From assembly GCA_030041195.1 (NCBI GenBank), contig JASHOI010000077.1, positions 1 through 14,725 on the forward strand: a stretch of 14,725 nt of DNA, written 5' to 3'. The number at the start of each line of letters is the position of its first letter. The stretch's first letter is position 1. The stretch is from Streptosporangiaceae bacterium (GTDB lineage: Bacteria > Actinomycetota > Actinomycetes > Streptosporangiales > Streptosporangiaceae). Of the stretch, positions 2,930-14,725 are shown in pieces. The translations under genes and the position numbers were made by a program. The notes beneath the pieces are model-generated. The model did not search any database, was not told the DNA's origin, and saw nothing but the letters and a program-made list of their open reading frames with translations.

Positions 2930-3899
2930 TGATCGAGGCGAAGTCGGGATCCGGGGTGAGGCCGAGCCGGGCGGCGCGCTCCGAGCGCACCCGCCCCGGC
3001 CAGGTGGCGAACATCCGGGCCACCGCCGGATCCGGCACCCAGTCGATCAGCGCGCTCACCTCGGGCCCGGCGACGTGCTCCAGCGCGGCGGCCATGTCCG
3101 CGACCGACACGGTGAGCGCGGGCAGGTTGACCGCGGTGCGGCCGCCCCAGGCCTGGTCGGACGATGTTGCGGCGCACAGCAGCCCCTCGATGGCCTTGGC
3201 CGGCGAGGCGAGCGCCACCTCCGTGTTCGGGTCGACCGGGCAGGTGGCACGCTGCCCGGCCAGCGGCTCGCGGATGATGCCGGACAGGAACCCGGACGCC
3301 GCGGCGTTGGGCCGCCCCGGGCGCACCGACACGGTCATCAGCCGCAGGGACCGCCCGCGCAGGAACCCCTTCCTGGTGTAGTCGGCCATCAGCTGCTCGC
3401 CGATGAACTTCTGCACGCCGTAGCTGGTCTGCGGGTTCGGCAGGGTTTCATCCTCTACTACCGGTGCAAGCGGGTGCTCATCGGAGCCGCCGAACACGGC
3501 GACCGAGCTCGAGTACACCACGACCGGGTTCGTGCCCGTGGCCCGGCAGGCGGCCAGCAGCAACTCGGTGGCCCGCAGGTTCGCCCGCATGCCGAGGTCG
3601 AAGTCCGCCTCGCACTCCCCGCTGACCGCCGCGGCCAGATGGAAGATCACCTCGGCCCCGGCGAGCGCGTCCCGCGCTTCGCCTGCGTGCCCGGCCAGCT
3701 CGCCGACGTCGCCGCGGATCTCGGTCACCCGCTCGTCCGCGGCCAGATCCGGCGGAGCCGCCGCCCGGTCGATGACCGTCACCCCGGATATGGGCCGCGC
3801 CTCGCCCCCAGCCACGCCGAGCGAGCCCGCCGCGAGCAGCTCCCTGGCCAGCCGCGACCCCACAAACCCGGCGCCCCCGGTGATCACCACGTGCACCAC
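2892..3899 (-). CDS. denD: D-erythronate dehydrogenase-like NAD-dependent epimerase/dehydratase (extended SDR)
   Basis: A 335-residue extended short-chain dehydrogenase. The Rossmann NAD-binding motif is GGAGFVG (8-14), the NNAG-equivalent is FHLAAAVSG (86-94), the catalytic serine region is VYSSSVAVFGG (128-138), and the catalytic Tyr/Lys pair lies in SYGVQK (Y160, K164). The ADFDLGMRAN segment, the VRPGRPNAAASGFLSGIIREPL segment and the C-terminal WPGRVRSERAARLGL pattern match what I recall of DenD (D-erythronate dehydrogenase, Gne-like SDR). DenD oxidises D-erythronate to 2-oxo-tetronate for four-carbon acid sugar catabolism. No kinase, isomerase or hydrolase partner is present here, so the pathway role is unproven. 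AAGGAG about 5 nt upstream supports GTG 3899 or GTG 3896. Another sugar-acid substrate is possible. Confidence 0.75.
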   Translation of the reverse strand: MVHVVITGGAGFVGSRLARELLAAGSLGVAGGEARPISGVTVIDRAAAPPDLAADERVTEIRGDVGELAGHAGEARDALAGAEVIFHLAAAVSGECEADFDLGMRANLRATELLLAACRATGTNPVVVYSSSVAVFGGSDEHPLAPVVEDETLPNPQTSYGVQKFIGEQLMADYTRKGFLRGRSLRLMTVSVRPGRPNAAASGFLSGIIREPLAGQRATCPVDPNTEVALASPAKAIEGLLCAATSSDQAWGGRTAVNLPALTVSVADMAAALEHVAGPEVSALIDWVPDPAVARMFATWPGRVRSERAARLGLTPDPDFASIINLYLAESATGR

Positions 3900-3992
3900 G
3901 GCGCTCCTTACCGTCGAGACGTGATCCTAAGCCCCCGGCCGGGCGGCGGCGCGCAGACCAGCCGGTGCAGCGCCCGAGCCCGGTAACCGCGA

Positions 3993-4061
3993 CTTCTCAC
4001 GTGTTGCGTTAGTGGTCGCGGGGTTTATGTCCGCTTTGGGGTCACCGAACCCGTGAGAAGT
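3993..4061. repeat. Perfect 10-bp inverted repeat flanking 49 bp
   Basis: ACTTCTCACG at 3993-4002 is exactly complementary to CGTGAGAAGT at 4052-4061. The enclosed 49 bp has no open frame. It lies in the 185-bp gap between the SDR start and the end of the small membrane-protein gene. It could be a small palindromic repeat of the REP/MITE type or a regulatory hairpin. No target-site duplication is evident. One copy is seen in this window. Confidence 0.5.
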
Positions 4062-4084
4062 GGGCTCGAGTGGCAAAACTGCGG

Positions 4085-4342
4085 TCACTGGGTGTCCGAT
4101 GCGTCGTCCGGGAGGGTGAGCGGCGGGCGGTTGATCGCGGGCATCACGGATGTGAGCTCCGCGCTGGCCCTGGCGACTTCCTGCTGTCTCTCGTGCTGCT
4201 TCTCGGCTCTCTCGGTGGCGGCGGTCAGCCGTTCGCTCATCGTGCGCAGCCGATGCGAGTGCGCGCGTGCCTTGATGATGCGGTCGGCCGCGTACAGGAC
4301 CGGCACCACAACGACAACACCGACGATGAGCAGGGCAAACAC
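4085..4342 (-). CDS. Small single-pass membrane protein with cytoplasmic-type coiled coil, function unknown
   Basis: Starting at GTG 4342 the product is 85 residues. An N-terminal hydrophobic helix (about residues 2-20, ALLIVGVVVVVPVLYAA) is followed by a basic turn (DRIIKARAHSHRLR) and a long, charged, heptad-like helix (MSERLTAATERAEKQHERQQEVARAS, about 34-60), then a proline-rich tail. The frame opens further upstream, to 4441, but GTG 4342 is preceded by a strong AGGAAGGA ribosome site and puts the helix at the N-terminus. I do not recognise a family. It shares its 213-bp upstream region with xfp, so the DosR-like box at 4475 could in principle serve both; this is speculation. Confidence 0.6.
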   Translation of the reverse strand: MFALLIVGVVVVVPVLYAADRIIKARAHSHRLRTMSERLTAATERAEKQHERQQEVARASAELTSVMPAINRPPLTLPDDASDTQ

Positions 4343-4474
4343 GACACTTCCTTCCTCATGCACTGGCGTGCTCCTCGCCTTCCAGCCTATGCGAGGCCGC
4401 CCGCCAGGCCGCGACGGCGCGGCGGCTCGGCCTGACTCCACGCGGGTTGAGGCCCGGCGAATTCCGGCGGTACC

Positions 4475-4488
4475 GGGACCAACGACTC
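4475..4488. promoter_or_regulatory. DosR/DevR-like box upstream of phosphoketolase
   Basis: GGGACCAACGACTC matches 8 of the 10 fixed positions of GGGAC-N4-GTCCC (perfect left arm, 3 of 5 in the right arm). It is centred about 74 bp before the xfp ATG. A TTGGAT hexamer at 4512-4517 could serve as a -10 about 30-35 bp from the centre. It is the weakest of the primary boxes in this window and gains support mainly from the stronger ones nearby. Confidence 0.45.
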
Positions 4489-4555
4489 TGCAGTGGGCCT
4501 GCGCCGGCTGGTTGGATGGTCAGCGAGCTAATGCGGCGAACGGACCGGGAGTAAG

Positions 4556-6922
4556 ATGACGACCACGGAGGCACGCGCGCTCACCGACGCCGAGGCCAGG
4601 ACGCTGGACAGCTACTGGCGGGCGGCCAACTACCTTTCCGTCGGCCAGATCTACCTCATGGGCAATCCGCTGCTGACCGAGCCGCTGCTGCCCGAGCACA
4701 TCAAGCCCCGGCTGCTCGGCCACTGGGGAACGACCCCAGGCCTCAACCTGCTCTACGCGCACCTGAACCGGGTGATCCGTAACTGGGACCTGGACATGAT
4801 CTTCATCGCCGGCCCCGGGCACGGCGGCCCCGCCGTCGTGGCCAATGCGTGGCTGGAAGGCACCTACACCGAGCTGTACCCGCACGTCACCCGGGATGCG
4901 GCGGGGATGGAGCGGCTGTTCCGGCAGTTCTCCTTCCCCGGTGGCATACCTTCTCACGCCGCCCCGGAGACGCCCGGGTCGATTCATGAGGGCGGTGAGC
5001 TCGGGTACGCGCTGGCGCACGCATACGGGGCGGTGTTCGACAACCCGGACCTGATCGCCGCGTGCGTGGTCGGGGACGGTGAGGCGGAAACCGGGCCGCT
5101 GGCCACCTCGTGGCATTCCAACAAGTTCCTCAACCCGGTCACCGACGGGGCGGTGCTGCCGATCTTGCACCTGAACGGGTACAAGATAGCCAATCCGACG
5201 GTGCTGGCCCGCATCCCCGAAGCCGAACTTGTCTGTTTGCTGGAAGGCTACGGGCACCATGTCCGCGTGGTCGCCGGGGACGATCCGGCGGAGGTGCACC
5301 AGCAGCTCGCGGCCGCGCTGGACGCGTGCGTGCAGGAAATTCACGCCATCCAGCAGCGCGCGCGCGAGCAGGGCGAGGCAACGAGGCCGCGCTGGCCGAT
5401 GATCGTGCTGCGCACCCCGAAGGGCTGGACCGGGCCGAAGACGGTGGACGGGCTGCCGGTGGAAGGCACGTGGCGGGCGCACCAGGTGCCGATCGCGGAG
5501 GTACGCACGAACCCCGTGCACCTGGGGCTGCTGGAGGAGTGGATGCACTCCTACCGGCCCGGCGAGCTGTTCGGCCCGGACGGAGCGCCGATACCGGAGC
5601 TGGCCGGGCTGCCGCCGCGGGACTACCGGCGGATGAGCGCGAACCCGCACGCCAACGGGGGCTTGCTGCTGCGCGAGCTGAACCTGCCGGAGTTCCGGGA
5701 CTACGGCGTCGAGGTCACCAGTCCCGGCGGCACGTTCACCGAGGGCACCCGGGTGCTGGGCCTGTGGCTGCGCGACGTCATCGCGGCCAACCCGACCAGC
5801 TTCCGGCTGTTCGGTCCGGACGAGACGGCGTCCAACCGGCTGCAGGACGTTTTTGAGGTAACCGACCGGCAGTTCGAGGGGGAGATCCTTCCCGGGGACG
5901 ATCACCTGGCGCCGGCGGGCCGGGTCACCGAAGTGCTCAGCGAGCACCTGTGCGAAGGCTGGCTGGAAGGTTACCTGCTGACCGGCCGGCACGGGCTGTT
6001 CAACTGCTACGAGGCGTTCATCCACATCGTCGACTCGATGTTCAACCAGCACGCCAAGTGGCTCAAGGTCACCCGGACCATCCCGTGGCGGCGGCCCATC
6101 GCCTCGCTGAACTATCTGCTCTCCTCGCTGGTGTGGCGGCAGGACCACAACGGGTTCTCGCACCAGGACCCCGGCTTCGTTGACCACGTGATGAACAAGA
6201 AGGCCGAGGTGATCCGCGTCTACCTGCCGCCGGACGCCAACTGCCTGCTGTCGGTCGCCGACCACTGCCTGCGGTCTCGGCATTACGTGAACGTGATCGT
6301 GGCCGGCAAGCAGCCGCAGCCGGACTGGCTGGCCATGGACGACGCGGTCATCCACTGCACCCGCGGCGCCGGGATCTGGGAGTGGGCCTCCAACGACGAC
6401 GGCGGCGAACCCGACGTGGTCATGGCGTGCGCCGGGGACATCCCCACCCTGGAAGTCCTGGCCGCCGTGTCATTGCTGCACGAGCACCTCCCGGAGCTGA
6501 AGGTCCGGGTCGTCAACGTGGTCGACCTGATGCGGCTGCAGCCGGAGACCGAGCACCCGCACGGCATGTCCGACGCGGAGTTCGACGCCCTGTTCACAAC
6601 CAGCCGCCCCGTGATCTTCGCCTACCACGGCTACCCGTGGCTGATCCACCGGCTCACCTACCGGCGGCACGGCCATTCGAATCTGCACGTGCGCGGGTAC
6701 AAGGAGGAGGGCACCACCACCACGCCGTTCGACATGGTGATGCTGAACGACCTCGACCGGTTCCACCTGGTCATCGACGTCATCGACCGGGTTCCCGGGC
6801 TGGCCTCACGGGCCGGGCATGTGCGGCAGCTGATGACCGACGAGCGAATCCGGGCCCGCGCCTGGACCCGGGCCGAAGGTGACGACATCCCCGAGGTCAG
6901 GGACTGGAAATGGCCGCAATAG
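4556..6922 (+). CDS. xfp: Phosphoketolase (xylulose-5-phosphate/fructose-6-phosphate)
   Basis: A 788-residue ThDP-dependent phosphoketolase of normal family length. It cleaves xylulose 5-phosphate (and/or fructose 6-phosphate) with phosphate to acetyl-phosphate plus glyceraldehyde 3-phosphate (or erythrose 4-phosphate). Diagnostic features: [10 protein letters not shown] (53-62), the GPGHGGP loop (86-92), the XFP signature EGGELGY (145-151), and the ThDP/metal motif GDGEAETG (173-180) followed by PLATSWHSN. The C-terminal domain carries [20 protein letters not shown] and the [17 protein letters not shown] segment. GGGAG four bases upstream fixes ATG 4556. A DosR-like box lies upstream. Its last 44 bp overlap the only usable start of phaC, so the two are probably one transcript. 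Acetyl-phosphate can become acetyl-CoA, the precursor of PHA; that link is inference. Confidence 0.95.
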
Positions 6923-8465
6923 CCGGCGCCAGGCCCGGTGGCATCCGAGTTGTGTCCCGGCGCAGGCCCCGGCGCTGGGGCGGCCGGGCGTCACGTTCGC
7001 GGAGCAGGACCCGAGGTTCACGGACCCGACCTGGCGGGAGAACCCGCTGTTCCGCCGGCTCGGCCAGACCTACCGGCTGTACGAGCAGTGGACCGACCGG
7101 ATGGTGGCGGCCGGCGGTGGCCCGTGGGAACGGCAGGCCCGCACCCGCTACCTGGCGAACATCCTCACCGGTGCGCTCGCGCCGACAAACTACCTGCCGA
7201 CCAACCCGGCCGCGCTCAAGCGAGTGTTCGAGACCGGCGGCTGGTCGGTGCTTCGCGGCGGCCGGAACATGGTGCGTGACCTGTCGCGAGGCGGCATGCC
7301 GGCGATGGTTGACCGCAAGCCGTTCCCGGTCGGCGAGAAGCTCGCGTGCACCACCGGGGCCGTCGTGCACCGGGAAGAGATCTTCGAGCTGCTCCAGTAC
7401 GCGCCGGCCACACCGGCCGTGCGGACGGTGCCGCTGCTGATCGTCCCGCCCGAGCTCAACCGCCACTACGTGCTCGACCTGGCTCCCGGCCGGAGCATGG
7501 TGGAGTACGCGGTAGCGCAGGGCATCCAGGTTTTCATGGTGGTGTGGCGGAACCCGCGGCCCGACCTGGGTCACGGGCGCTGGGGGCTGGACGACTACGT
7601 CGGCGCCCAGGCCCGCGCCGCCGGGATCGCCGCGAAGATCTCCGGAAGCGGCACCGTGAACTGGCTGGGCCTGTGCGCGGGCGGCATCACAACCGCGCTG
7701 ACTCTCGGCTACCTGGCCGCCAGGGGCGATGCCCCGGCCGGCGCGGCAACGTTCATCGTCACGATGCTGACCAGCGATCACCCGAACATCGTGGGCTGGA
7801 TGGCGGGCGGGGGCTCGCTGCAGGCGCTCCGCCGGGCCGCCGCTGCCCGCGTGGTCTTCCCCGGCCGGATGCTGCGGACCTCGTTCGCGTGGCTGCGTCC
7901 CAACGATCTTGTGTTCAACTACCTGGCGCACGGATGGCTGCTCGGCGAGGACCCACCCGCCTTCGACGTTCTGGCCTGGAACGACGATGCGACCGGGATG
8001 ACCGCCCGGCTGTCGGCGGAGATGAGCGAGGTACTCGTGGGTCGCAAGGCCGCCCAGCCGGGCGCGATCACCGTGCTCGGCACGCCGATAGACCTGGCCA
8101 AGGTCGACTGCGACAGCTTCTGCGTGGCTGGCTACACCGACCACATCACCCCGTGGCGGGCGTGCTACGGCACCACCCAGGTGCTGGGCGGGCGCAAGGA
8201 GATGGTGGTGGTCCGTTCCGGCCACATCCAGTCTTTCGTCAACCCCGCGAAGACCGCGAAATACGGGTACTGGGACGCACCGCCGTCGGTTCCCGATCCG
8301 GACGAGTGGCTCTCCGCCGCGGCTGAGCACGAGGGATCGTGGTGGCCCGCATGGGCGCGGTGGCTGATCCCGCGTGCCGGTGCCGAGAAACCCGCCCCGC
8401 CCGTTCTGGGCAGCCCGCGGTACCCCTCACTCGGCCCCGCCCCCGGCACGTACGTGCACGAGTAA
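6879..8465 (+). CDS. phaC: Poly(3-hydroxyalkanoate) synthase (PhaC, class I-like)
   Basis: 528 residues (class I synthases are usually a little longer). The protein polymerises 3-hydroxyacyl-CoA into storage polyester at the granule surface. The PhaC N-domain begins with [21 protein letters not shown] (about 43-63). The alpha/beta-hydrolase core has the PhaC-type lipase box GLCAG with nucleophile Cys266. [25 protein letters not shown] follows, then the catalytic Asp421 in [10 protein letters not shown] and His449 in [10 protein letters not shown]. All three catalytic residues are present. The only in-frame start before the N-domain is GTG 6879, inside xfp, which gives an odd Arg/Ser-rich leader of about 40 residues; the next in-frame Met (74) would cut the domain. 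No phaA or phaB lies in the window. A phasin gene lies about 3 kb downstream. Confidence 0.9.
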
Positions 8466-8487
8466 TGAGGGCCGTGCGAGCCTGCCG

Positions 8488-8501
8488 GGGAACTCGGTAA
8501 C
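8488..8501. promoter_or_regulatory. Weak distal DosR/DevR-like box upstream of nitroreductase 1
   Basis: GGGAACTCGGTAAC matches 7 of 10 fixed positions of GGGAC-N4-GTCCC. On its own it would be unconvincing, but its centre is exactly 22 bp (two helical turns) from the centre of the perfect box at 8510-8523, the arrangement seen at tandem DosR sites. Confidence 0.4.
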
Positions 8502-8509
8502 CCGACGGC

Positions 8510-8523
8510 GGGACCTATGTCCC
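8510..8523. promoter_or_regulatory. Perfect DosR/DevR-like box upstream of nitroreductase 1
   Basis: GGGACCTATGTCCC is a 10/10 match to the inverted arms of the DosR operator core (published 20-mer TTSGGGACTWWAGTCCCSAA). Its centre is about 42 bp before ATG 8559. That is the distance expected between an activator site overlapping the -35 region and a transcription start, so a leaderless mRNA is possible. Confidence 0.75.
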
Positions 8524-8558
8524 TGGCCGCGCGCCGTCCCGCCCGTGACGCTGGGGAC

Positions 8559-9554
8559 ATGGCTAAGACAAGCTCGCGCGGCTCGTCGCGGCCGGCCGTG
8601 ACGGAACAGCTGTCCGGCCAGCTGGTCGGCGAGCTGCTGGCGGCCGCGACAGCGGCGCCATCGATCCACAACACGCAGCCGTGGCGGTTCGCGGTCAGGG
8701 GGGACACGATCGAGCTGCGCGCCGACCCGGAACGGATGCTGCCGGTCATCGACCCGGACGGCCGGGGCATCCACATCGCCTGCGGCGCGGCCCTGTTCAA
8801 CCTGTGCCTGGCCGCCGCGGTCGCGGGCCGCGAGCCCGTGACCCAGCTGCTTCCCTGGCCGGCCGAGCCGCTGCTGCTGGCCACGGCTCGGCTGGCCGGG
8901 CCGCACCGGCCCACGCCGGCCGAGCGGGAGCTGCACGCCGCGATCACGCTGAGGCACACCAACCGGGGCCCGTTCAGCGGGCGCCCGGTGCCGCCGGGCG
9001 TGCTGGCCGAGCTCGCCGGCGCTGCCGAGGCCGAGGGCGGCATCCTGCACGTCCTGGACCATGAGGAGACCGCACGCGTGCTGTATCTGGTCAGGGACGC
9101 CGAGCGCGCCTGGCTGGCCGATCGCCGCTACCGCGCCGAGCTGGCCCGGTGGGCGGGCGGACCCCGGGACCGGGACGGCATGCCGGACAGCGTGCTCGGG
9201 CCCCGGTCCCCCGACCGGCCGGCCCCGGTGCGTGACTTCGCGCCCGGCCGCCCGGCTCCGGCGGGCTACGCCTGGTTCGAGGAGAACCCGCAGCTCGCGG
9301 TCGTTTCGACCCGGTTCCGCGGGCGGGCGCACTGGCTGCTGGCCGGGCAGGCGCTGCAGCGGGTGCTGCTGACAGCCACAGCGCGCGGTATATCCGCCAG
9401 CCCGCTGACACAGCCGCTGGAGAGGGGACAGGCGTGGCTGGTCCGCGATCCGCGGTCCGGCCGGGAGGAGCCGCAGATGATTCTCCGCATCGGTTATGGC
9501 CTGCCGGTGCAATCCAGCCCGCGTCGGCCCGTCAGCGACGTCCTGGACGAGTAA
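8559..9554 (+). CDS. Acg-like nitroreductase-fold protein 1
   Basis: 331 residues from ATG 8559. It has the Acg-type nitroreductase signature APSIHNTQPWRF (33-44), an RADPERMLPVIDPDGR segment (54-69), GAALFNLCLA (77-86), and the C-terminal WLLAGQALQRVLLTATARGISASPLTQPLE block. Mycobacterial relatives (Acg/Rv2032, Rv3127, Rv3131) are DosR-regulon members; Acg binds FMN but is not a typical nitroreductase, so the activity is uncertain. Start: an upstream ATG at 8517 lies inside the perfect DosR-like box and is rejected. ATG 8559 fits the promoter spacing, while GTG 8598 (reading MTEQL) aligns with the N-terminus of the second copy; neither has a strong ribosome site. A paralogue follows 120 bp downstream with its own box. 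Confidence 0.87.
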   Translation: MAKTSSRGSSRPAVTEQLSGQLVGELLAAATAAPSIHNTQPWRFAVRGDTIELRADPERMLPVIDPDGRGIHIACGAALFNLCLAAAVAGREPVTQLLPWPAEPLLLATARLAGPHRPTPAERELHAAITLRHTNRGPFSGRPVPPGVLAELAGAAEAEGGILHVLDHEETARVLYLVRDAERAWLADRRYRAELARWAGGPRDRDGMPDSVLGPRSPDRPAPVRDFAPGRPAPAGYAWFEENPQLAVVSTRFRGRAHWLLAGQALQRVLLTATARGISASPLTQPLERGQAWLVRDPRSGREEPQMILRIGYGLPVQSSPRRPVSDVLDE

Positions 9555-9562
9555 CTCTCCCG

Positions 9563-9600
9563 CCTGGCCGAAGCCTGCTGTCACTGCCCGAATGGCCAGG
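9563..9600 (+). terminator. Candidate hairpin after nitroreductase 1
   Basis: CCTGGCC at 9563-9569 pairs perfectly with GGCCAGG at 9594-9600, with a 24-nt loop, starting 8 bp after the stop codon. No T-run follows. It may be a factor-independent terminator of the U-less actinobacterial kind, or chance in GC-rich DNA. Confidence 0.25.
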
Positions 9601-9603
9601 TGG

Positions 9604-9617
9604 GGGCCGAAGGTCCC
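9604..9617. promoter_or_regulatory. DosR/DevR-like box upstream of nitroreductase 2
   Basis: GGGCCGAAGGTCCC matches 9 of the 10 fixed positions of GGGAC-N4-GTCCC. It is centred about 64 bp before ATG 9675, in the 120-bp gap between the two nitroreductase genes. A weak half-match, GGGCCTTGGCACCT, lies 23 bp further on (9627-9640). Confidence 0.65.
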
Positions 9618-9674
9618 GGATCACGAGGGCCTTGGCACCTGCAGCTCCGCCCGTCGAGGACGTTGTCTGGCAGC

Positions 9675-10661
9675 ATGACCGAGCAGCTCACGGTGGACGA
9701 GATCGTCGGGTCCGTCGTGGCGGAAGCCGTGTGGGCGCCGTCGGTGCACAACACCCAGCCGTGGCGGTTCGACGTCGGCGAGCAGCAGATCGACCTGTAC
9801 GCCGATCCCGGTCGGCAGCTGCTCGTGGCCGATCCCGACGGCCGCGAAATGATGATCAGCTGTGGTGCCGCGCTGTTCACCGTTCGCCTCGCCCTGCGGG
9901 CGCTCGGCCGTGTTCCGCAGGCGCTCCTGCTGCCCGACCCGGGTGAACCGGCGCACGTGGCGCGGGTGAGCTGGCCGGAGCGCGCAGCCGTCACGGACGA
10001 TGAACGGCGGCTCTTCCGCGCGGTGCGCGAGCGGCGGACGCACCGTGGCGCCTTCGGCGCGGCGCCGCTTCCGCCGCGGCTGCTGAACGTGCTGCTGGCG
10101 GGGGCCGCGCGGGACGAGTCGACGCTGCGGATCCTGGCCGACGACGGGCAGCGGGCGGTACTCGCGGCGGCCGTCCAGACCGCCGAGCGAGCCCTGGAAC
10201 ACGACCGGGAACGCGCCGCGGAGCTGGCCCGCTGGGCTCCCGCGCCGGGCAGCACCCGCCGAGACGGGGTCCCGTCGACCTCCTATCCAGCACGGGCGGA
10301 GCACACCATCCCGGACTTCCCCGGCCGGGACTTCGCCCACGGCCACGGATGGGGCTGGCCGCCGCTCAGCTCGGCGCCGCTGTTCCGCGGCGCGGGGGTC
10401 GTTGCGTTGCTCACGACGGTCAATGATCGCCGGGCGGACTGGATCAATGCCGGGCAGGCGCTGCAGCGGATCCTGCTCACCGCCGGCACGCACGGGGTCG
10501 CCGCGGCGCTGCACAGCCAGCCGCTCGAGTTCCCCTCGCTTCGTGAGCTCGTCCGCTTCCGGCTGGCCGACGGGGATTACCCGCAGCTCGTGCTCAGGCT
10601 CGGGACAGTCATCCAGACGGCGGTCAGCGTCCGCCGCGCACCATCCGACGTGCTGGCTTGA
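9675..10661 (+). CDS. Acg-like nitroreductase-fold protein 2
   Basis: 328 residues, a clear paralogue of the preceding gene: MTEQLTVDEIVGS at the N-terminus, the APSVHNTQPWRF signature (21-32), YADPGRQLLVADPDGR, SCGAALFTVRLALRALGR, and near the C-terminus WINAGQALQRILLTAGTHGVAAALHSQPLEF. Like nitroreductase 1 it belongs to the Acg group, whose mycobacterial members are hypoxia-induced and FMN-binding, but the substrate is unknown. The open frame extends to 9600, but that start falls at the operator box, so ATG 9675 is used; the ribosome site is weak. Its 3' end is overlapped on the other strand by the tail of the decayed hydrolase locus. Confidence 0.87.
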   Translation: MTEQLTVDEIVGSVVAEAVWAPSVHNTQPWRFDVGEQQIDLYADPGRQLLVADPDGREMMISCGAALFTVRLALRALGRVPQALLLPDPGEPAHVARVSWPERAAVTDDERRLFRAVRERRTHRGAFGAAPLPPRLLNVLLAGAARDESTLRILADDGQRAVLAAAVQTAERALEHDRERAAELARWAPAPGSTRRDGVPSTSYPARAEHTIPDFPGRDFAHGHGWGWPPLSSAPLFRGAGVVALLTTVNDRRADWINAGQALQRILLTAGTHGVAAALHSQPLEFPSLRELVRFRLADGDYPQLVLRLGTVIQTAVSVRRAPSDVLA

Positions 10662-11344
10662 CGTCCGTGCCGTCCAGGAAGGACGTCACGGCGGCGGCGA
10701 ACTCGCCGGGTTCGGATGCGCCGCTGCCGCACGCTGCCCGCGTAGCATCCTCCGGCTGCGGCCTGCGCCTGCCAGGCACCCGCGTCGCGCTCCAAGGCCG
10801 GCGGCAGGCAGCCGATGATCTGCTGGATGAGTTCCGGGCGGTTCGCGACGGTCGCCGCGGACAGGGCGTTCTCGACGTTGCGGCGCAGCGCCTCGCGGGG
10901 GGCGAGGCGCACCGGCGGCAGCGGGGTGCCGCACCGTGAGTTCCTGCGCGATCATGCCGCCGAGGCTCGCGCCCAGCACGTGCGCGGAGCCGATCCCGGC
11001 GTGGTCGAGCACGGCCAGCACGTCACCGGCCATGTCCGCCACGCTGAACGAGCCAGAAGCGAGGCTCCGGCCGCTGCCCCGGTTGTCGACCAGCACCAGC
11101 CGGTACCGGCGCTGCAGGGGGCCGATGGCCGGGCCCAGCCCGCCCGGTCCAGGCCCAGGCCTTGGATGAGCAACAGTGCGGGCCGCCGGGAGATCCTCGA
11201 GCCGCGCAGGTCGGCCTGGATGAGCAGGGTCTCGGCGGAGATGTTGAGAGCCTGGGCGATGAGCTTGAGCACCCGCTCGGAGGGCTGATGCATGCCGCGC
11301 TCGACGCCGAGGGCCTCCATCTGCGCGCTCCACGGATCGGGCAC
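10624..11344 (-). pseudogene. Decayed XRE-type regulator fused to broken alpha/beta hydrolase
   Basis: Read on the minus strand, the locus starts with GTG 11344 behind a good GGAAG site. It encodes VPDPWSAQMEALG, then jumps directly to VERGMHQPSERVLKLIAQAL. In the XRE/Cro regulators I recall with this N-terminus, the DNA-binding helices (about 30 residues) lie between these segments, so the HTH appears deleted in frame. The frame then enters an alpha/beta hydrolase (ALLLIQGLGLDRAGW). It breaks near 11131-11136 and continues in another frame (LQRRYRLVLVDNRGSGRS, then GASLGGMIAQE with the nucleophile elbow). It breaks again near 10915-10925 (to LAPREALRRNVENALS) and again near 10728 (to EPGEFAAAVTSFLDG). 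The hydrolase Asp/His region is also missing. At least three frame breaks and two or more deletions make this a pseudogene. Confidence 0.75.
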
Positions 11345-11396
11345 TCGGCATCTTCCTTCGGGTCAGTACCGTGCTAAGTACAACTGGCGCAACGGG

Positions 11397-11430
11397 GCGC
11401 GGCGGTGGTGGCTTCCGCCGCTCGCCGCGC
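11397..11430. terminator. Candidate GC-rich hairpin between phasin and XRE remnant
   Basis: GCGCGGCG at 11397-11404 pairs perfectly with CGCCGCGC at 11423-11430, with an 18-nt loop, 15 bp beyond the phasin stop codon. No T-run follows. It is placed correctly to end the phasin transcript, but GC-rich hairpins are common in such DNA. Confidence 0.35.
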
Positions 11431-11444
11431 ACGTTGCGATGCGG

Positions 11445-11783
11445 TCACTTGCCCTGCGAACTGGCCTTCTTGGCGGCGGTCTCGGCCTTGTCGGTGCCGC
11501 TGCGGGCCGTGAGCACCGGCGCGGTGGCCGCGATCACGTCCTCGGCGAATTTGCGCTGGGCGGCGAGGAGCTGCTCGGCGAAGTCATACGCGTTGGAGAC
11601 CAGCTCACCAGGCTTGGGCAGCTTGTCGGCGAGCGGCACGGGCGGGGTCGGCAGCGACGGGGTGATGGACTGGACCGTCTCAGCCCACGTCCTGATCGCG
11701 TCGGTGACGGCTTCCTGGCTCTTGCGGATGGTGTCCAGGATCTGCTCCTGGAACTCCTGGCCGGCGGTGCGGATGTCGGTCAT
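11445..11783 (-). CDS. Phasin-like PHA granule-associated protein
   Basis: 112 residues, rich in Ala, Gln, Glu and Lys and without membrane segments. It is almost entirely amphipathic helix (MTDIRTAGQEFQEQILDTIR, then NAYDFAEQLLAAQRKFAEDV), broken by a proline-rich linker (SITPSLPTPPVPLADKLPKPG), with a Lys/Ala-rich tail (ETAAKKASSQGK). This layout is that of actinobacterial phasins and of the related HBHA-type helical proteins. Phasins coat PHA granules and modulate synthase activity, which fits the phaC gene upstream. ATG 11783 is fixed by a strong GAGGAG site; the frame runs open upstream only through the promoter. Strong regulation is suggested by a consensus-like promoter plus two DosR-like boxes. 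HBHA-like surface function is the alternative. Confidence 0.8.
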   Translation of the reverse strand: MTDIRTAGQEFQEQILDTIRKSQEAVTDAIRTWAETVQSITPSLPTPPVPLADKLPKPGELVSNAYDFAEQLLAAQRKFAEDVIAATAPVLTARSGTDKAETAAKKASSQGK

Positions 11784-11816
11784 CTGACTCTCCTCCTCGG
11801 GTGGAATCCTTCGCTT

Positions 11817-11846
11817 ATTATAGTTTGCAATTGGGTTATATGTCAA
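11817..11846 (-). promoter_or_regulatory. Near-perfect sigma-70/HrdB-type promoter of the phasin gene
   Basis: On the minus strand TTGACA (11846-11841) and TATAAT (11822-11817) are both exact consensus hexamers separated by 18 bp. The expected transcription start is near 11810, about 27 bp before the phasin ATG. The stretch is strikingly AT-rich against its surroundings. The proximal DosR-like box ends 6 bp upstream of the -35 hexamer. Confidence 0.8.
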
Positions 11847-11852
11847 GCGCGC

Positions 11853-11866
11853 TGGCCGATGGTCCC
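11853..11866 (-). promoter_or_regulatory. Proximal DosR/DevR-like box of the phasin promoter
   Basis: Minus-strand GGGACCATCGGCCA matches 8 of 10 fixed positions (perfect left arm). It is centred about 49 bp before the predicted start of transcription and directly abuts the -35 region, a class of position from which an activator can contact RNA polymerase. Confidence 0.6.
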
Positions 11867-11874
11867 GGGCGGTG

Positions 11875-11888
11875 ATGACCAACGGCCC
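11875..11888 (-). promoter_or_regulatory. Distal DosR/DevR-like box of the phasin promoter
   Basis: Minus-strand GGGCCGTTGGTCAT matches 7 of 10 fixed positions. Its centre is 22 bp from the proximal box, i.e. on the same face of the helix. Confidence 0.4.
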
Positions 11889-11927
11889 GGTCTCAGCCGG
11901 CCATTAGGCCAGGCTCCGCGGGTGCAG

Positions 11928-11941
11928 GGGACTTAAGGCCC
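11928..11941. promoter_or_regulatory. DosR/DevR-like box upstream of the SRPBCC-like gene
   Basis: GGGACTTAAGGCCC matches 9 of 10 fixed positions and also the AT-rich centre (ACTWWAGT) of the published mycobacterial DosR consensus in 7 of 8 bases. It lies 71 bp before ATG 11999. Confidence 0.7.
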
Positions 11942-11948
11942 ACGACCC

Positions 11949-11962
11949 GGGCCAGAGGTCCT
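11949..11962. promoter_or_regulatory. Second DosR/DevR-like box upstream of the SRPBCC-like gene
   Basis: GGGCCAGAGGTCCT matches 8 of 10 fixed positions. Its centre is 21 bp from the first box and about 43 bp before ATG 11999, almost the same distance as at nitroreductase 1. Confidence 0.55.
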
Positions 11963-11998
11963 CTGTCGGCCCACTGCCACAAGTGCTTGGCTGCACGC

Positions 11999-12508
11999 AT
12001 GTTCGTCGGTGACGAGGTGGTCCTGGACGTCAGCTTCGCTGTGGCCCGGGCCAGGCTCGCGGATCTCGCAGGGAACGATCTGCTGCGCGGCGCGTCAGAA
12101 GACGCTTACGGCGCCGGGATCACGGGCCTGGCGCGGGTTGGCACGCTGGGCCTGTCCAAGGTGGTCCGGGTGCGCGTGCGCGAGCTCACCGAGGCCGGCG
12201 GCGGCCCCGGGCTCGCCATCCGCTGGGAGGCCACTGGGCCGGGGGGCGGGCTGTTCCCGGCCCTGGATGCGGACATCAGGCTAGCCCGGGCCTCGGACGA
12301 AACCACGGTGCTGTCGCTTGCGGGCGTGTACCGGCCGCCGCTCGGCACGCTTGGTAATGCGCTCGACCGTGCGGCCCTGCATCGAGTCGCCGCCGCGACC
12401 ATCCGGAGCTTTCTTGGCCGCGTCGCCGCCGGCATCACGAGCCCAGCGGGCGCCCCCGAAACCGGCGCCGACCCGTTCCCGCTGCCGTTCTCGCCCGAGA
12501 TGCCGTAG
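11999..12508 (+). CDS. SRPBCC-like protein, putative member of the DosR-like regulon
   Basis: 169 residues from ATG 11999 (an in-frame TTG at 11987 is the alternative). The pattern is a cyclase/SRPBCC-like fold: an initial strand VVLDVSFAVARARLADLA (8-25), central strands (VRVRVRELTE, LAIRWEATGPGGGLFPALDADIRL, TTVLSLAGVYRPPLG) and a long C-terminal helix (LDRAALHRVAAATIRSFLGRVAAGI). Ligand and activity are unknown. There is no ribosome site before the ATG; together with the operator spacing this suggests a leaderless mRNA. It is divergent from the phasin gene, with two pairs of DosR-like boxes between them, and convergent with the STAS-PAS gene (about 25 bp between stop codons). I am confident it is a gene, less so of the fold. 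Confidence 0.7.
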   Translation: MFVGDEVVLDVSFAVARARLADLAGNDLLRGASEDAYGAGITGLARVGTLGLSKVVRVRVRELTEAGGGPGLAIRWEATGPGGGLFPALDADIRLARASDETTVLSLAGVYRPPLGTLGNALDRAALHRVAAATIRSFLGRVAAGITSPAGAPETGADPFPLPFSPEMP

Positions 12509-12533
12509 CAACCCCTGAATACGGCATTGCGGG

Positions 12534-13601
12534 TCACCTGTCACCGTTTTGCAGGGCAGGACTCGGGGAGGGCCCCGGGCTGGGCGGGGCGAAGGCGTAG
12601 CCGCGAACATCGCGGATCGTGTCGTCCAGCTCGCGCAACGCGTCCGTGATGCGCTCGCGGGCCAGCTCACTGGGCAGGTCGGCCGCGGCCTGCAGGCTGA
12701 GCCCTACCCGGAACAGGCTCTGCACGACTCGGTCGAACAGCTCCTGGTCGCGGCGGGTGTGCTCGGCCACGGCGGCGCGGGCGAGATCTGCGAGGTCCTC
12801 GCGGCGGCGGGCCTCGGTCGCGTCCCGGATCACGGCGAGGACGAAGAGGCCCGTTGCGGTCGGCACCGGGGTCAGGCTGACCTCGACGGGCAGGGTGGCT
12901 CCGTCCTTGCGCAGCCCGACCAGCCGGGCGCGGCTGCCCATCGGCCTGGCCTCGGGAGCGCGCGCATAGGCGGCCCGGTATCCCTCGTGCGCTGCGCGCA
13001 AGTCGACCGGGACAAGGCTCTCGACCGGGCGGCCAGCCAGATCGGCGGGCTCGTAGCCGAACATCTCCGCGCACCGCCGGTTGGCCAGGACGATCTCGCC
13101 ATCATGGCCGGTCAGTGCCAGCCCGTCGCCGAGCGCGTCGATGAGCTGCCACAGCATGCCCGGGGTGATCGCCGTCGCCCCGGGCGCACCGGCAGGCATG
13201 GCCGGCGATCGGGTGCTGGCGGGTACCGGCGTGTCGGTGGAAGCCATGGGCTCGGTTCGCGGCGTTCCGGCCGCGGTCGCCGCCTCCACCGTGGGGTAGA
13301 TCGAGACCAGGCGGTCGAGTCCCTCGATGCCGAGCACGCGGCGGACGACCGGTGCGGTGACGACGAGCCTCAGTTGCGTGCCGCTGACTGCCGCCCGCTG
13401 GTAGGCGCGCGCGATCGCGTCCATGGCCGCGTGATCGCACGACGCGGTGGCCGTCATGTCCGCGATCAGCACGGCCGCCCCGCGGTTGATCAACGAGAGC
13501 AGCTGCTCGCGCAGCCGGGCCACGTTGGTCACGTCGATGTGCTCGGGCAGGGTCACGACCGCCTGCCGGCCCGCCCATTGCACCGGAAACTCGGGGCACA
13601 T
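12534..13601 (-). CDS. STAS-PAS protein with degenerate DevS-like dimerisation helix (no kinase domain)
   Basis: 355 residues from ATG 13601 (in-frame TTG 13607 also possible). Residues 5-110 form a STAS domain (VQWAGRQAVVTLPEHIDVTNVARLRE; DMTATASCDHAAMDAI). The serine phosphorylated in SpoIIAA-type anti-anti-sigma factors appears replaced at SCDHA. A Pro/Ala/Thr-rich linker follows. Residues about 147-262 are a PAS domain (LIDALGDGLALTGHDGEIVLANRRCAEMFGYEPADLAGR; ending VLAVIRDATEARR). Residues 283-336 resemble the HisKA_3 dimerisation helices of DevS-type kinases (ELFDRVVQSLFRVGLSLQ; ELDDTIRDVRGYAF), but the phosphoacceptor His of the usual L-H-D-R motif is Phe289 and no ATPase domain follows. 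It may be a dominant or scaffold partner of a DevS-like sensor, or a decaying kinase. A perfect DosR-like box lies 84 bp upstream. Confidence 0.8.
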   Translation of the reverse strand: MCPEFPVQWAGRQAVVTLPEHIDVTNVARLREQLLSLINRGAAVLIADMTATASCDHAAMDAIARAYQRAAVSGTQLRLVVTAPVVRRVLGIEGLDRLVSIYPTVEAATAAGTPRTEPMASTDTPVPASTRSPAMPAGAPGATAITPGMLWQLIDALGDGLALTGHDGEIVLANRRCAEMFGYEPADLAGRPVESLVPVDLRAAHEGYRAAYARAPEARPMGSRARLVGLRKDGATLPVEVSLTPVPTATGLFVLAVIRDATEARRREDLADLARAAVAEHTRRDQELFDRVVQSLFRVGLSLQAAADLPSELARERITDALRELDDTIRDVRGYAFAPPSPGPSPSPALQNGDR

Positions 13602-13684
13602 CGGCAAGATCCAATCGAGCGGCTACTGGCGTGTGGCGCAGAGTCTACGTGGATCAGCGGGACGGGCGGGGCGCCCGTGCCGAC

Positions 13685-13698
13685 GGGACCAAGGTCCC
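13685..13698. promoter_or_regulatory. Perfect DosR/DevR-like box between STAS-PAS and cytochrome b genes
   Basis: GGGACCAAGGTCCC is a 10/10 match with fully complementary six-base arms (GGGACC/GGTCCC). It lies in the 201-bp divergent intergenic region, 84 bp from the STAS-PAS start and 104 bp from the cytochrome b start, so it may act on either or both. Confidence 0.75.
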
Positions 13699-13706
13699 GG
13701 CCGGCG

Positions 13707-13720
13707 GTGACTCACATCCC
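13707..13720. promoter_or_regulatory. Second DosR/DevR-like box before cytochrome b
   Basis: GTGACTCACATCCC matches 8 of 10 fixed positions. Its centre is 22 bp from the perfect box, on the cytochrome b side, which favours the cytochrome gene as main target. Confidence 0.5.
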
Positions 13721-13802
13721 TGGTGCGGCCGGCTTCGCGACAGCGACGATTGCAGCCATTGTGCTACGGCTCAGCCTGAGCCCCCTGATAAGGAGCAAGG
13801 AC

Positions 13803-14725
13803 ATGAGTATCCCAGCCCAGGCCGCACGTCCCTTAGCGATCAACTTGAATTCGCCCGGCAGCTACCTGCACTGGTCGATCTTCACCGTGTCGGTGGCGAA
13901 CCTCGTGCTCATCGCGGTCATGGTCGTGATCTTCGGCGCGGCGCTGATGCTGCGATTCCCGAAGGGAAAGACCTACCCGGCCGAGCAGCCCGCGACCGAC
14001 CCGGCGACCGGCGAGTCGCTGCCCGGCCCGCCGAGCCCGCCCGCCGCCGACAACGAGGACGCGACGATGTGGACGGCGCGGGTGCGGCGCGGCGCGCTGC
14101 GCTTGCTGCCACCGGGCAAGCTGCTGCCCGACCGCCAGCCGGCGTACGTGGCGTCGTGGGCGTACGTGTTCGGGGTGGCCTCCCTGGCCGCGCTCGGCGT
14201 GGCGATTGTCTCCGGATTCGCGCTCGCTCTCGGCGGCCCCGACTGGTGGCACTACAATCCGGTCGGCCACTTCTTCAACAGCCTGCACCTGTGGAGCGTC
14301 GAGCTGTTCATGGCGCTGCTGGTGATCCATTTGTGGGCGAAATTCTGGATGGCCGCCTGGCGCGGCCGCCGCGCGATGACCTGGATCACCGGCGTGGTCG
14401 CGTTCCTGGCGTCGATCGTGGAGTGCTTCACCGGATACCTGTCGCAGCAGAACTTCGACTCTCAGTGGATCTCCACCAGCGGGAAGGACGCGTTCAACTC
14501 GGTCGGCGTCGGCGCCTTCTTCAACCTCATGAACTTCGGCCAGATGCTGATGTGGCACATCGTGCTGATCCCGATCATCCTGGTCGCGGTCGTGGGTGCG
14601 CACGTGCTCATGGTCCGGGTGCGCGGGGTGGCACACCCCATCGACGAGGCAGGATCGGGGCGTGTGCGCGGGCGGGCGCGCCGGCGGGCGGCCGCGACCG
14701 CCGACGCCGCCGCATGGCGCGGCCC
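13803..14725 (+). CDS. Cytochrome b (QcrB/b6-type N-terminal domain) with extra N-terminal membrane helix, partial
   Basis: 307 codons read through to the right edge without a stop. ATG 13803 follows an AAGGAG site at 6-7 nt spacing. An extra hydrophobic helix (about 24-50, WSIFTVSVANLVLIAVMVVIF) and a Pro/Glu/Asp-rich loop (57-88) precede a four-helix cytochrome b domain. Putative haem ligands are His162 and His176 (spacing 14) in the second core helix, and His252 and His267 (spacing 15) in the fourth. The 14/15 spacing is that of b6-type proteins rather than mitochondrial cytochrome b. GYLSQQNFDSQWISTSGKDAFN is the quinol-site region between helices. After the fourth helix comes an Arg/Ala-rich stretch. 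It probably passes electrons from menaquinol in the membrane. No qcrA or qcrC lies upstream, and a tandem DosR-like box pair sits in front, so it is unlikely to be the housekeeping qcrB. Confidence 0.83.
   Translation, partial: MSIPAQAARPLAINLNSPGSYLHWSIFTVSVANLVLIAVMVVIFGAALMLRFPKGKTYPAEQPATDPATGESLPGPPSPPAADNEDATMWTARVRRGALRLLPPGKLLPDRQPAYVASWAYVFGVASLAALGVAIVSGFALALGGPDWWHYNPVGHFFNSLHLWSVELFMALLVIHLWAKFWMAAWRGRRAMTWITGVVAFLASIVECFTGYLSQQNFDSQWISTSGKDAFNSVGVGAFFNLMNFGQMLMWHIVLIPIILVAVVGAHVLMVRVRGVAHPIDEAGSGRVRGRARRRAAATADAAAWRG

Follow-up and report, generated by a model that had tools for sequence, protein, structure and literature searches.

The right two thirds of the window, by which we mean the whole 14,725-nucleotide stretch analysed (contig JASHOI010000077.1 of a Streptosporangiaceae bacterium), are probably part of a low-oxygen island controlled by DevRS, which would include the gene pair xfp-phaC and a gene for a phasin-like protein. 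The wider proposal of the original prediction, a regulon of the DosR/DevR type, is well supported at the sequence level by the statistics of the boxes, by DevR and DevS genes lying near the same nitroreductases in relatives and by the boxes found in front of devR itself. The most fitting interpretation is an established switch connected to a gene set that is new in part. Judging from its closest relatives, the organism is probably an uncultivated, Trebonia-like representative of the Streptosporangiaceae. The genes concerned are the following.

4556..6922, plus strand: XFP, xylulose-5-P/fructose-6-P phosphoketolase (Pfam XFP_N, XFP and XFP_C)
6879..8465, plus strand: PhaC, PHA synthase (PF07167), opening with GTG
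8559..9554, plus strand: Acg-type FMN oxidoreductase 1 (NF047509, 322 bits against a cut-off of 199, longest frame)
9675..10661, plus strand: Acg-type FMN oxidoreductase 2 (NF047509, 292 bits against a cut-off of 199, longest frame)
11445..11783, minus strand: phasin-like protein of 112 aa (composition; PhaC linkage in one relative)
11999..12508, plus strand: START-like protein, predicted SRPBCC/START-like fold (structure model, Foldseek)
12534..13601, minus strand: STAS-PAS protein with a C-terminal DevS-like DHp helix pair that lacks the acceptor His, and with no ATPase domain
13803..14723, plus strand: cytochrome b, N-terminal 307 aa (PF13631), running off the contig

The three XFP Pfam domains span the whole length of the phosphoketolase, which also matched NCBIfam phosphoketolase subfamilies above the cut-off; judged by this family assignment, its product would be acetyl phosphate. 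In the phosphoketolase reaction sugar phosphates are split to acetyl phosphate, and no NADH is formed. The phaC frame and the end of xfp overlap by 44 bases, thus the two genes probably share one transcript. PhaC contains the PhaC_N domain and the motifs GLCAGG (with Cys266), DHITPW and GHI, which we take to be the Cys-Asp-His motifs that identify a PHA synthase. Its scores are below the NCBIfam cut-offs of the class I and class II families TIGR01839 and TIGR01838 (432.2 versus 622.65 and 486.8 versus 855.4 bits), and it is assigned by sequence to the PHA synthase superfamily as a whole. The two nitroreductases had been claimed to be Acg-like, and both scored above the NF047509 cut-off; each has its own box. 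Their longest frames start at 8517, within a box, and at GTG 9600, and the ATG codons at 8559 and 9675 were preferred. The phasin-like protein had no match in Pfam or NCBIfam, hence none to a phasin family, and is so called on the strength of its composition and of one genome in which it is linked to PhaC: a 78 per cent identical stretch was found 3' of a PhaC in the relative genome G208 (locus L156).

Boxes had been predicted in five intergenic regions, and all of them are present, with perfect copies of the core GGGAC-N4-GTCCC at 8510 and 13685 and copies with one mismatch at 9604 and 11928. The sites are listed below without strand.

4475..4488: DevR-like box of 15.0 bits, centred 74.5 bp 5' of the phosphoketolase start
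8510..8523: perfect DevR-like box, centre 42.5 bp 5' of ATG 8559, 19.3 bits
9604..9617: DevR-like box, centre 64.5 bp 5' of ATG 9675, 16.4 bits
11853..11888: two weak DevR-like sites in tandem 5' of the phasin-like gene, starting at 11853 (8.5 bits) and 11875 (4.6 bits), spaced by 22 bp
11928..11962: two weak DevR-like sites in tandem, starting at 11928 (8.3 bits, centre 64.5 bp 5' of ATG 11999) and 11949 (5.4 bits, centre 43.5 bp 5' of it), spaced by 21 bp
13685..13698: perfect DevR-like box of 21.7 bits in the region that separates the divergent genes for STAS-PAS (box centre at -90.5) and cytochrome b (-111.5)

Counts were compared with those in 200 shuffles. The core used in the original prediction occurs perfectly at two sites (0.09 expected; two attained in one of 200 shuffles) and with at most one mismatch at four sites, which is weakly over chance (1.75 expected; reached in 19 of 200 shuffles). 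With up to two mismatches 23 sites were found against 22.0 expected (94 of 200 shuffles), and this chance-level count was dropped as a test. The published, AT-centred DosR consensus GGGHCNWWNGNCCC (PMC2947987) parted signal from noise: it matches exactly at 8510, 9604, 11928 and 13685, which amounts to 8 matches counting both strands against 0.17 expected, a number reached by none of the 200 shuffles. Allowing one mismatch added only 4475 and 11853 in the window scan. The excess over shuffled DNA is present with the published consensus, whereas the core with up to two mismatches stays at chance. A contrast with coding DNA was set aside, as miscalled starts made the coding class unreliable. The box at 4475 has two mismatches to the core and one to the published consensus, and one of its half-sites is broken.

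A weight matrix trained solely on the nitroreductase promoters of relatives, with the window left out, ranked 13685, 8510, 9604 and 4475 at the top. Four sites of at least 15.0 bits compare with 0.03 expected in first-order Markov simulations, and these four are the sole window sites of at least 12 bits. All lie in intergenic DNA, which makes up 1187 of the 14725 bases if ATG 8559, 9675 and 13803 are taken as starts; with the longest frames instead, 9604 and 13685 fall within a frame and 8510 spans a frame start. The 11928 box is by the matrix at chance level on its own (about 2 such sites expected), and it stands out through its match to the published consensus and its membership in a tandem pair. 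An Rfam search of the window at gathering scores gave no match.

Between the phasin-like and START-like genes, the weak sites are arranged as two tandem pairs with 21-22 bp spacing; the sites at 11853 and 11875, 5' of the phasin-like gene, were absent from the original prediction. In relatives, a spacing of 21-23 bp was found in 19 of 51 strong and in 23 of 37 weak tandem pairs, as compared with 0-1 in the simulated sets for either class, and about 0.017 weak pairs with the preferred spacing are expected in the window. By the strict strong-pair criterion, which demands one site of at least 12 bits, the window has no tandem pair. That the boxes are chance palindromes in GC-rich DNA is a practically negligible explanation: the two-mismatch core count agrees with it, but matrix ranking, conservation and spacing are all beyond the shuffles.

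The conservation of the boxes differed between the target genes. From the survey of the nitroreductase loci of relatives, promoters were left out when the match started past residue 40, when it scored below 80 bits, when the upstream DNA was too short (L024 and L065) or when identity was below a limit, which was 60 per cent for XFP and removed L046 even though it is boxed. A protein search turned up cytochrome b orthologues in 13 relative genomes, and all seven with a readable 5' end have a box of at least 12 bits at -71 to -122 (null mean 0.04). This already speaks against chance palindromes, and it makes cytochrome b, originally named as a member of the cluster, the best conserved target as judged by sequence. 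At the same threshold boxes were detected in one of three START-like, one of three STAS-PAS, five of 35 DevS and one of nine AckA promoters of relatives. The START-like gene gave two weak matches in a search of 101 genomes of the order, unusable for footprinting.

Phosphoketolase promoters were boxed in 7 of 12 loci near nitroreductases (null 0.06), in 9 of 30 loci of the order (null 0.28) and in 2 of 11 close relatives, L137 and L139 being counted in both of the latter sets. In the sample covering the phylum the number was 1 of 30, the one being the L007 locus that had already been used; one promoter of this sample had just 14 bases upstream, and the scoring matrix was an earlier one whose training contained phosphoketolase sites. 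The locus with the closest XFP fragment (L022, 87 per cent) has no XFP box. In five promoters, from Actinomadura, Catellatospora and Lentzea loci and with two of them in one genome, the site is at -63 to -67. The predicted coupling of phosphoketolase to the switch thus recurs in relatives but does not extend through the phylum, and phosphoketolase as a general member of the DevR regulon was rejected. For PhaC, 12 loci were sampled, three of which lacked the 5' end; none of the remaining nine promoters is boxed, one of them having just 69 bases upstream. PhaC and phasin genes were absent from the 80 nitroreductase loci of relatives. The predicted coupling of PHA synthesis is therefore seen only on the window contig and finds no support as a conserved unit.

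These numbers bear on a smaller regulon, in which DevR would act solely on both Acg-type genes, on the START-like gene and on the STAS-PAS/cytochrome b pair, while xfp-phaC and the phasin-like gene would be neighbours whose weak boxes are decayed or due to chance. We regard this as rather unlikely, though it deserves serious weight. It would account for the unboxed PhaC promoters, the single phylum-wide XFP box, the broken half-site at 4475 and the low scores before the phasin-like gene, and it agrees with the L156 phasin-like gene being without a site of at least 10.5 bits. On the other hand, the 4475 site reaches 15.0 bits at -74.5, close to the position of the sites in the five XFP promoters, and the pair before the phasin-like gene has the preferred 22-bp spacing, for which chance would rarely account. 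The larger island including xfp-phaC and the phasin-like gene is the preferred interpretation, with the PHA step as its least certain part.

DevR in relatives was recognised via reading frames, Pfam and PDB. Of the 80 nitroreductase loci, 33 contain a DevR-like gene (at least 150 bits and at least 50 per cent identity) and 36 a DevS-like gene (at least 200 bits and at least 35 per cent identity). No GAF-type DevS kinase was seen in the window itself, whose right edge appears to be the end of the contig, as the entry for the window's STAS-PAS protein gives a contig of 14725 bases. In L004, DevR matches PDB 3c3w (4.6e-86) and DevS matches DevS GAF structures (2y8h, 6.9e-53); the frame 13768-14454 of the same locus was rejected as DevR, having no Pfam or PDB match. 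The DevR proteins of L001, L003, L005, L020 and L025, which are among the closest loci, are 82-93 per cent identical to that of L004. A box was found in 20 of 34 devR promoters of relatives (null 0.25), and no box of at least 8 bits in those of L003, L004, L005 and L020, four of the closest. Nitroreductase promoters of relatives carry the core with at most one mismatch in 32 of 104 cases (null mean 4.9, maximum 10), and in just 5 of 13 in nine of the closest loci.

Another response regulator of the LuxR/NarL type, such as a paralogue of DevR that answers to a signal of its own, might read the boxes. Paralogues do exist, for L129 has, close to a 22.6-bit box, a gene 39 per cent identical to DevR and next to it a DevS-like match, and PolR, a DevR homologue of Microlunatus, is reported in the available part of PMC6754071 to bind a different direct repeat. 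Such a regulator is nevertheless improbable, since devR itself is boxed in most of the relatives' promoters, the motif agrees with the published DosR box, and five of the closest loci have the highly similar DevR described above.

Genome-wide, the perfect core outnumbered its reversed control in G002 (27:2), G001 (11:6) and G006 (17:10), and was little or not enriched in four of the seven relatives (G003 17:17, G004 6:7, G005 7:5, G007 7:8). Perfect-box neighbourhoods were inspected for 6 of 11 boxes in G001, 3 of 7 in G005 and 2 of 6 in G004, and several perfect boxes of relatives sit by genes without an evident link to hypoxia.

The window shares features with described systems. The OsdR/OsdK regulon of Streptomyces coelicolor, as far as the available text of PMC5069765 goes, has palindromic GGGxC-N4-GxCCC elements like the window boxes, comprises a nitroreductase-family gene (SCO0215) with clustered stress genes, and has a regulator that was phosphorylated in vitro with acetyl phosphate. 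Its target table, in the available portion, differs from the window in listing USPs, nitrate reductase and pyruvate phosphate dikinase, and the main text has no words beginning with phosphoketolase, polyhydroxy or cytochrome, gene types that the window contains. The mycobacterial DosR/DevR regulon has the same type of box (PMC2947987) and, by the accessible parts of PMC10034137 and PMC11203133, likewise an Acg nitroreductase; it is autoregulated, and its storage arm is tgs1, which makes triacylglycerol under DosR. The window has a PHA synthase in place of tgs1 and adds phosphoketolase and cytochrome b, whereas neither USP nor HSP20 was found by Pfam and NCBIfam among the ten window proteins scanned. 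This parallel suggests that the logic of the switch was kept while the storage polymer was swapped. The DevR switch, described in the available literature for mycobacteria, Streptomyces and Microlunatus, would thereby be extended to uncultivated soil actinobacteria, with a different output that comprises phosphoketolase and an unusual cytochrome b and might also comprise PHA storage.

Similar islands occur in relatives, none with the full gene set of the window. The 13-kb contig L184 encodes cytochrome b, USPs, HSP20, AckA and XFP with three boxes and resembles the window in combining boxed cytochrome b with XFP. In Trebonia (L185/L186), a stretch of about 27 kb contains AckA-XFP, a boxed cytochrome b, DevS and DevR, and L136 has DevR and DevS together with an Acg-type and a START-like gene, the latter two types being shared with the window. 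XFP has acetate kinase as its neighbour in L184 and L185, whereas in the window it is followed by PhaC.

We propose that when oxygen falls, DevS, encoded off the contig, would phosphorylate DevR, which would then bind the boxes in the five intergenic regions and switch on xfp-phaC, both Acg-type flavoproteins, the genes for the phasin-like and START-like proteins and, in divergent directions, those for STAS-PAS and cytochrome b. Judging from their families, XFP would split sugar phosphates to acetyl phosphate, the acetyl groups would go to ATP or, in the window organism, partly into PHA granules, and the flavoproteins and cytochrome b might deal with surplus reductant. A bolder version, which we think unlikely, is a self-reinforcing hypoxia switch: DevR would induce phosphoketolase, whose acetyl phosphate would phosphorylate DevR without a kinase, the STAS-PAS-DHp protein would be a DevS-derived pseudo-kinase that has lost the acceptor His and tunes DevS or DevR, and PHA would replace triacylglycerol as the DevR-controlled carbon store. 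Phosphorylation of DevR by acetyl phosphate is reported in the accessible part of PMC7843721; combined with DevR control of an acetyl-phosphate maker it would allow a feedback that can be tested.

In the cytochrome b, His162/176 and His252/267 are spaced like heme ligands. Full-length relatives have 644 and 666 aa, and no Rieske domain was found in the four cytochrome b neighbours in L186 and the two in L004, the downstream side of the window gene being cut off. The STAS-PAS and START-like proteins belong to large families (2171 and 2656 homologues, respectively), and we met no known function for either. The START-like protein is without a Pfam domain in the 120 homologues listed; its model (pLDDT 70) matched ZhuI (1.8e-5) and CoxG (8uds, 6.8e-5) in Foldseek, with low TM-scores of 0.38-0.52. 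What the STAS-PAS protein has in common with DevS-type histidine kinases is the DHp helix pair, which aligns with DevS. These kinases have GAF domains, whereas the window protein has STAS and PAS domains, a replaced acceptor His and, by Pfam scan, no HATPase domain. The phospho-acceptor His is missing in 119 of the 120 matches listed, which have Leu (114), Phe (3), Ile (1), Val (1) or His (1) at this position, the window's own protein being among those with Phe.

DosR/DevR-like boxes (core GGGAC-N4-GTCCC) had been predicted in five intergenic regions, and a scan with the core motif found all of them at the predicted positions (4475, 8510, 9604, 11928 and 13685; boxes are named by start coordinate). 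The genes concerned are:

4556..6922 (+), phosphoketolase (XFP)
6879..8465 (+), PhaC
8559..9554 (+), Acg-type nitroreductase
9675..10661 (+), second Acg-type nitroreductase
11445..11783 (-), phasin-like protein
11999..12508 (+), START-like protein
12534..13601 (-), STAS-PAS protein
13803..14723 (+), cytochrome b

Whether the boxes exceed chance was decided by the choice of motif. With two mismatches allowed in the core, the window held 23 sites versus 22.0 expected from shuffles, which is no excess, whereas the perfect core occurred twice versus 0.09 expected, a count reached in 1 of 200 shuffles. A DosR consensus taken from a supplementary legend to the Rhodococcus equi genome publication (PMC2947987) and trimmed for this analysis to GGGHCNWWNGNCCC had four exact window sites, each inside a region flagged by the original prediction; 0.17 matches were expected (both strands summed), and none of 200 shuffles gave as many. 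Allowing one mismatch added only 4475 and 11853.

An independent weight matrix was derived from public genomes, using the neighbourhoods of genes homologous to the second nitroreductase; of at least 340 such loci, 80 were kept. First-order Markov simulations served as nulls for matrix scores, relatives' promoter counts and pair spacing. Core boxes carrying no more than one mismatch were present in 32 of the 104 nitroreductase promoters of these loci (null mean 4.9, maximum 10, 60 simulations), and in 5 of 13 in nine of the closest loci among the 80. The matrix was built from 36 distinct boxes of nitroreductase promoters, with the window left out. Its core part was imposed, because training sites were picked by likeness to the core; the AT centre emerged unforced in a version whose training also took in phosphoketolase promoters. 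The top window sites were 13685 (21.7 bits), 8510 (19.3), 9604 (16.4) and 4475 (15.0), that is, four at 15.0 bits or more versus 0.03 expected, all within the intergenic 8% of the window, as delimited with the start codons chosen here. The centre of box 8510 lies exactly 42.5 bp upstream of ATG 8559, which, for a leaderless transcript, is presumably where an activator would bind.

Site 11928 scored 8.3 bits, and about two such sites are expected in the window. In relatives, a spacing of 21-23 bp was found in 19 of 51 pairs classed as strong (one site at least 12 bits, partner at least 7 bits), versus 0-1 in five simulated sets, and in 23 of 37 classed as weak (both sites 4.5 to 12 bits, sum at least 13, 14-40 bp apart), versus 0-1 of 6-9 in three simulated sets. 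The matrix found no strong tandem pair in the window, and two weak pairs at the favoured spacing, 11853+11875 and 11928+11949 (expectation about 0.017 for pairs of such score), both within the 215 bp separating the phasin-like from the START-like gene. Given this spacing and the low expected count, they are probable DevR-like sites.

No DevR was seen within the 14,725-nt window. The contig probably ends at the window's edge, since the database entry of the STAS-PAS protein gives a contig of exactly 14725 bases. Among the 80 nitroreductase loci (of at least 340), 33 had a DevR-like and 36 a DevS-like gene. DevR of locus L004 matched DevR structure 3c3w (4.6e-86); its DevS has the domain order GAF-GAF-HisKA_3-HATPase and matched DevS GAF structures, which we take to be heme-binding. 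A box of at least 12 bits preceded devR in 20 of 34 promoters of this sample, and was absent in L003, L004, L005 and L020. Nine sites of at least 11 bits lie within 15 kb at locus L136 (G004:C531), which also carries DevR, DevS and USPs as well as an Acg-type and a START-like gene. Strong boxes in genome G001 (L129, 4880; L130, 4798 and 9334) neighbour a DevR paralogue, an oxidoreductase of ferredoxin type and genes that, by eye, resemble a sulfide:quinone oxidoreductase cluster.

Phosphoketolase and PHA synthesis had also been placed under DevR control. Boxed XFP promoters numbered 7 of 12 within the nitroreductase loci (80 of at least 340), 2 of 11 among close relatives, 9 of 30 across the order (null 0.28; XFP match in 85 of 101 genomes) and 1 of 30 phylum-wide (best loci taken; match in 48 of 198 genomes). 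Judged from these uneven promoter counts, recruitment of XFP to the boxed set is recurrent rather than general; PhaC promoters of relatives were boxed in 0 of 9. In several relatives the gene order is USP, XFP, AckA, with a box upstream of USP that scores 14.2 bits in L140 and 11.4 bits in L184, and none of at least 10.5 bits in L187, L191 and L192. One further genome (L156) has the phasin-like gene 3' of a PhaC, there with no box of at least 10.5 bits. In L184, a GNAT plus CoA-ligase/ATP-grasp fusion (4646-7312) has a 15.9-bit box 43 bp upstream of its called start, and frames that look similar adjoin XFP in L185 and L188. The PhaC frame has no in-frame ATG/GTG/TTG from GTG 6879, within XFP, until ATG 7101, which could reflect translational coupling, use of a less common start codon or an error in the sequence.

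In the proposed mechanism, falling oxygen would be sensed by DevS, DevR would be activated and the island switched on. Feedback on DevR through XFP would be possible, since passages of the respective papers name acetyl phosphate as the XFP product (PMC6456759) and report phosphorylation by it of DevR (PMC7843721) and, in vitro, of OsdR (PMC5069765). The overlap between PhaC and XFP suggests that some of the acetyl flow would be stored as PHA, which resembles mycobacterial triacylglycerol storage through tgs1 (passages of PMC10034137 and PMC11203133). A DosR-type regulon is of a known kind, and the gene set here is a variant. The literature searched gave no paper with DevR together with phosphoketolase and nitroreductase, nor one with DevS together with phosphoketolase. 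DosR and phosphoketolase both occur in three papers; excerpts of two of them, PMC2947987 and PMC6456759, name the two in separate places; the former notes the R. equi Xfp gene and, separately, DosR boxes, and one may precede that gene. A paper with DosR, polyhydroxyalkanoate and actinobacteria is, in its excerpts, about polyphosphate (PMC6754071).

The C-terminal helix pair of the 355-aa STAS-PAS protein (model pLDDT 70.6, pTM 0.40) aligns with the DevS DHp domain. In the best 120 of 2171 sequences, the window's own included, the acceptor-His position holds Leu in 114, Phe in 3 and Ile, Val and His in 1 each, and the following Asp is kept in 120/120. With the acceptor His replaced and no ATPase domain found by domain search, the protein resembles in architecture a kinase-dead DevS dimer module, from which we infer a modulating role. 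The adjoining START-like gene and its 2656 homologues form an unnamed family; the protein model (pLDDT 70) gave fold matches with low TM-scores. The gene was found in 3 of the 80 loci (of at least 340), L002, L025 and L026, all with the STAS-PAS gene, and of 119 START-like entries, counting the one from the window, 18 were listed on a contig equal in size to a STAS-PAS entry's (null 1.6).

A protein search of 13 relative genomes gave some cytochrome b match in each, many distant. All seven loci with a readable 5' end (66-78% identity) were boxed (null mean 0.04), three of them (L004, L005, L028) being already in the nitroreductase sample. Among 101 genomes of the order, Trebonia alone had a clear full match. 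Two full-length relatives (644 and 666 aa) lack a PEW motif and have an additional helix at the N-terminus, a four-histidine bundle and some 300 residues as a C-terminal part; four neighbours in Trebonia locus L186 and two in L004 gave no Rieske-domain match. A frame that looks Rieske-type by eye (L020, 16054-17802, -) lies in the same genome as a cytochrome b gene but distant from it. In L186, the cytochrome b adjoins a lone STAS-domain protein (5431-5901) and an acetyl-CoA synthetase-like enzyme (3076-5202). Within the window, an alpha/beta hydrolase (10686-11344, -) that has an HTH piece at its N-terminus is divided between two overlapping frames and therefore looks frame-broken or mis-assembled.
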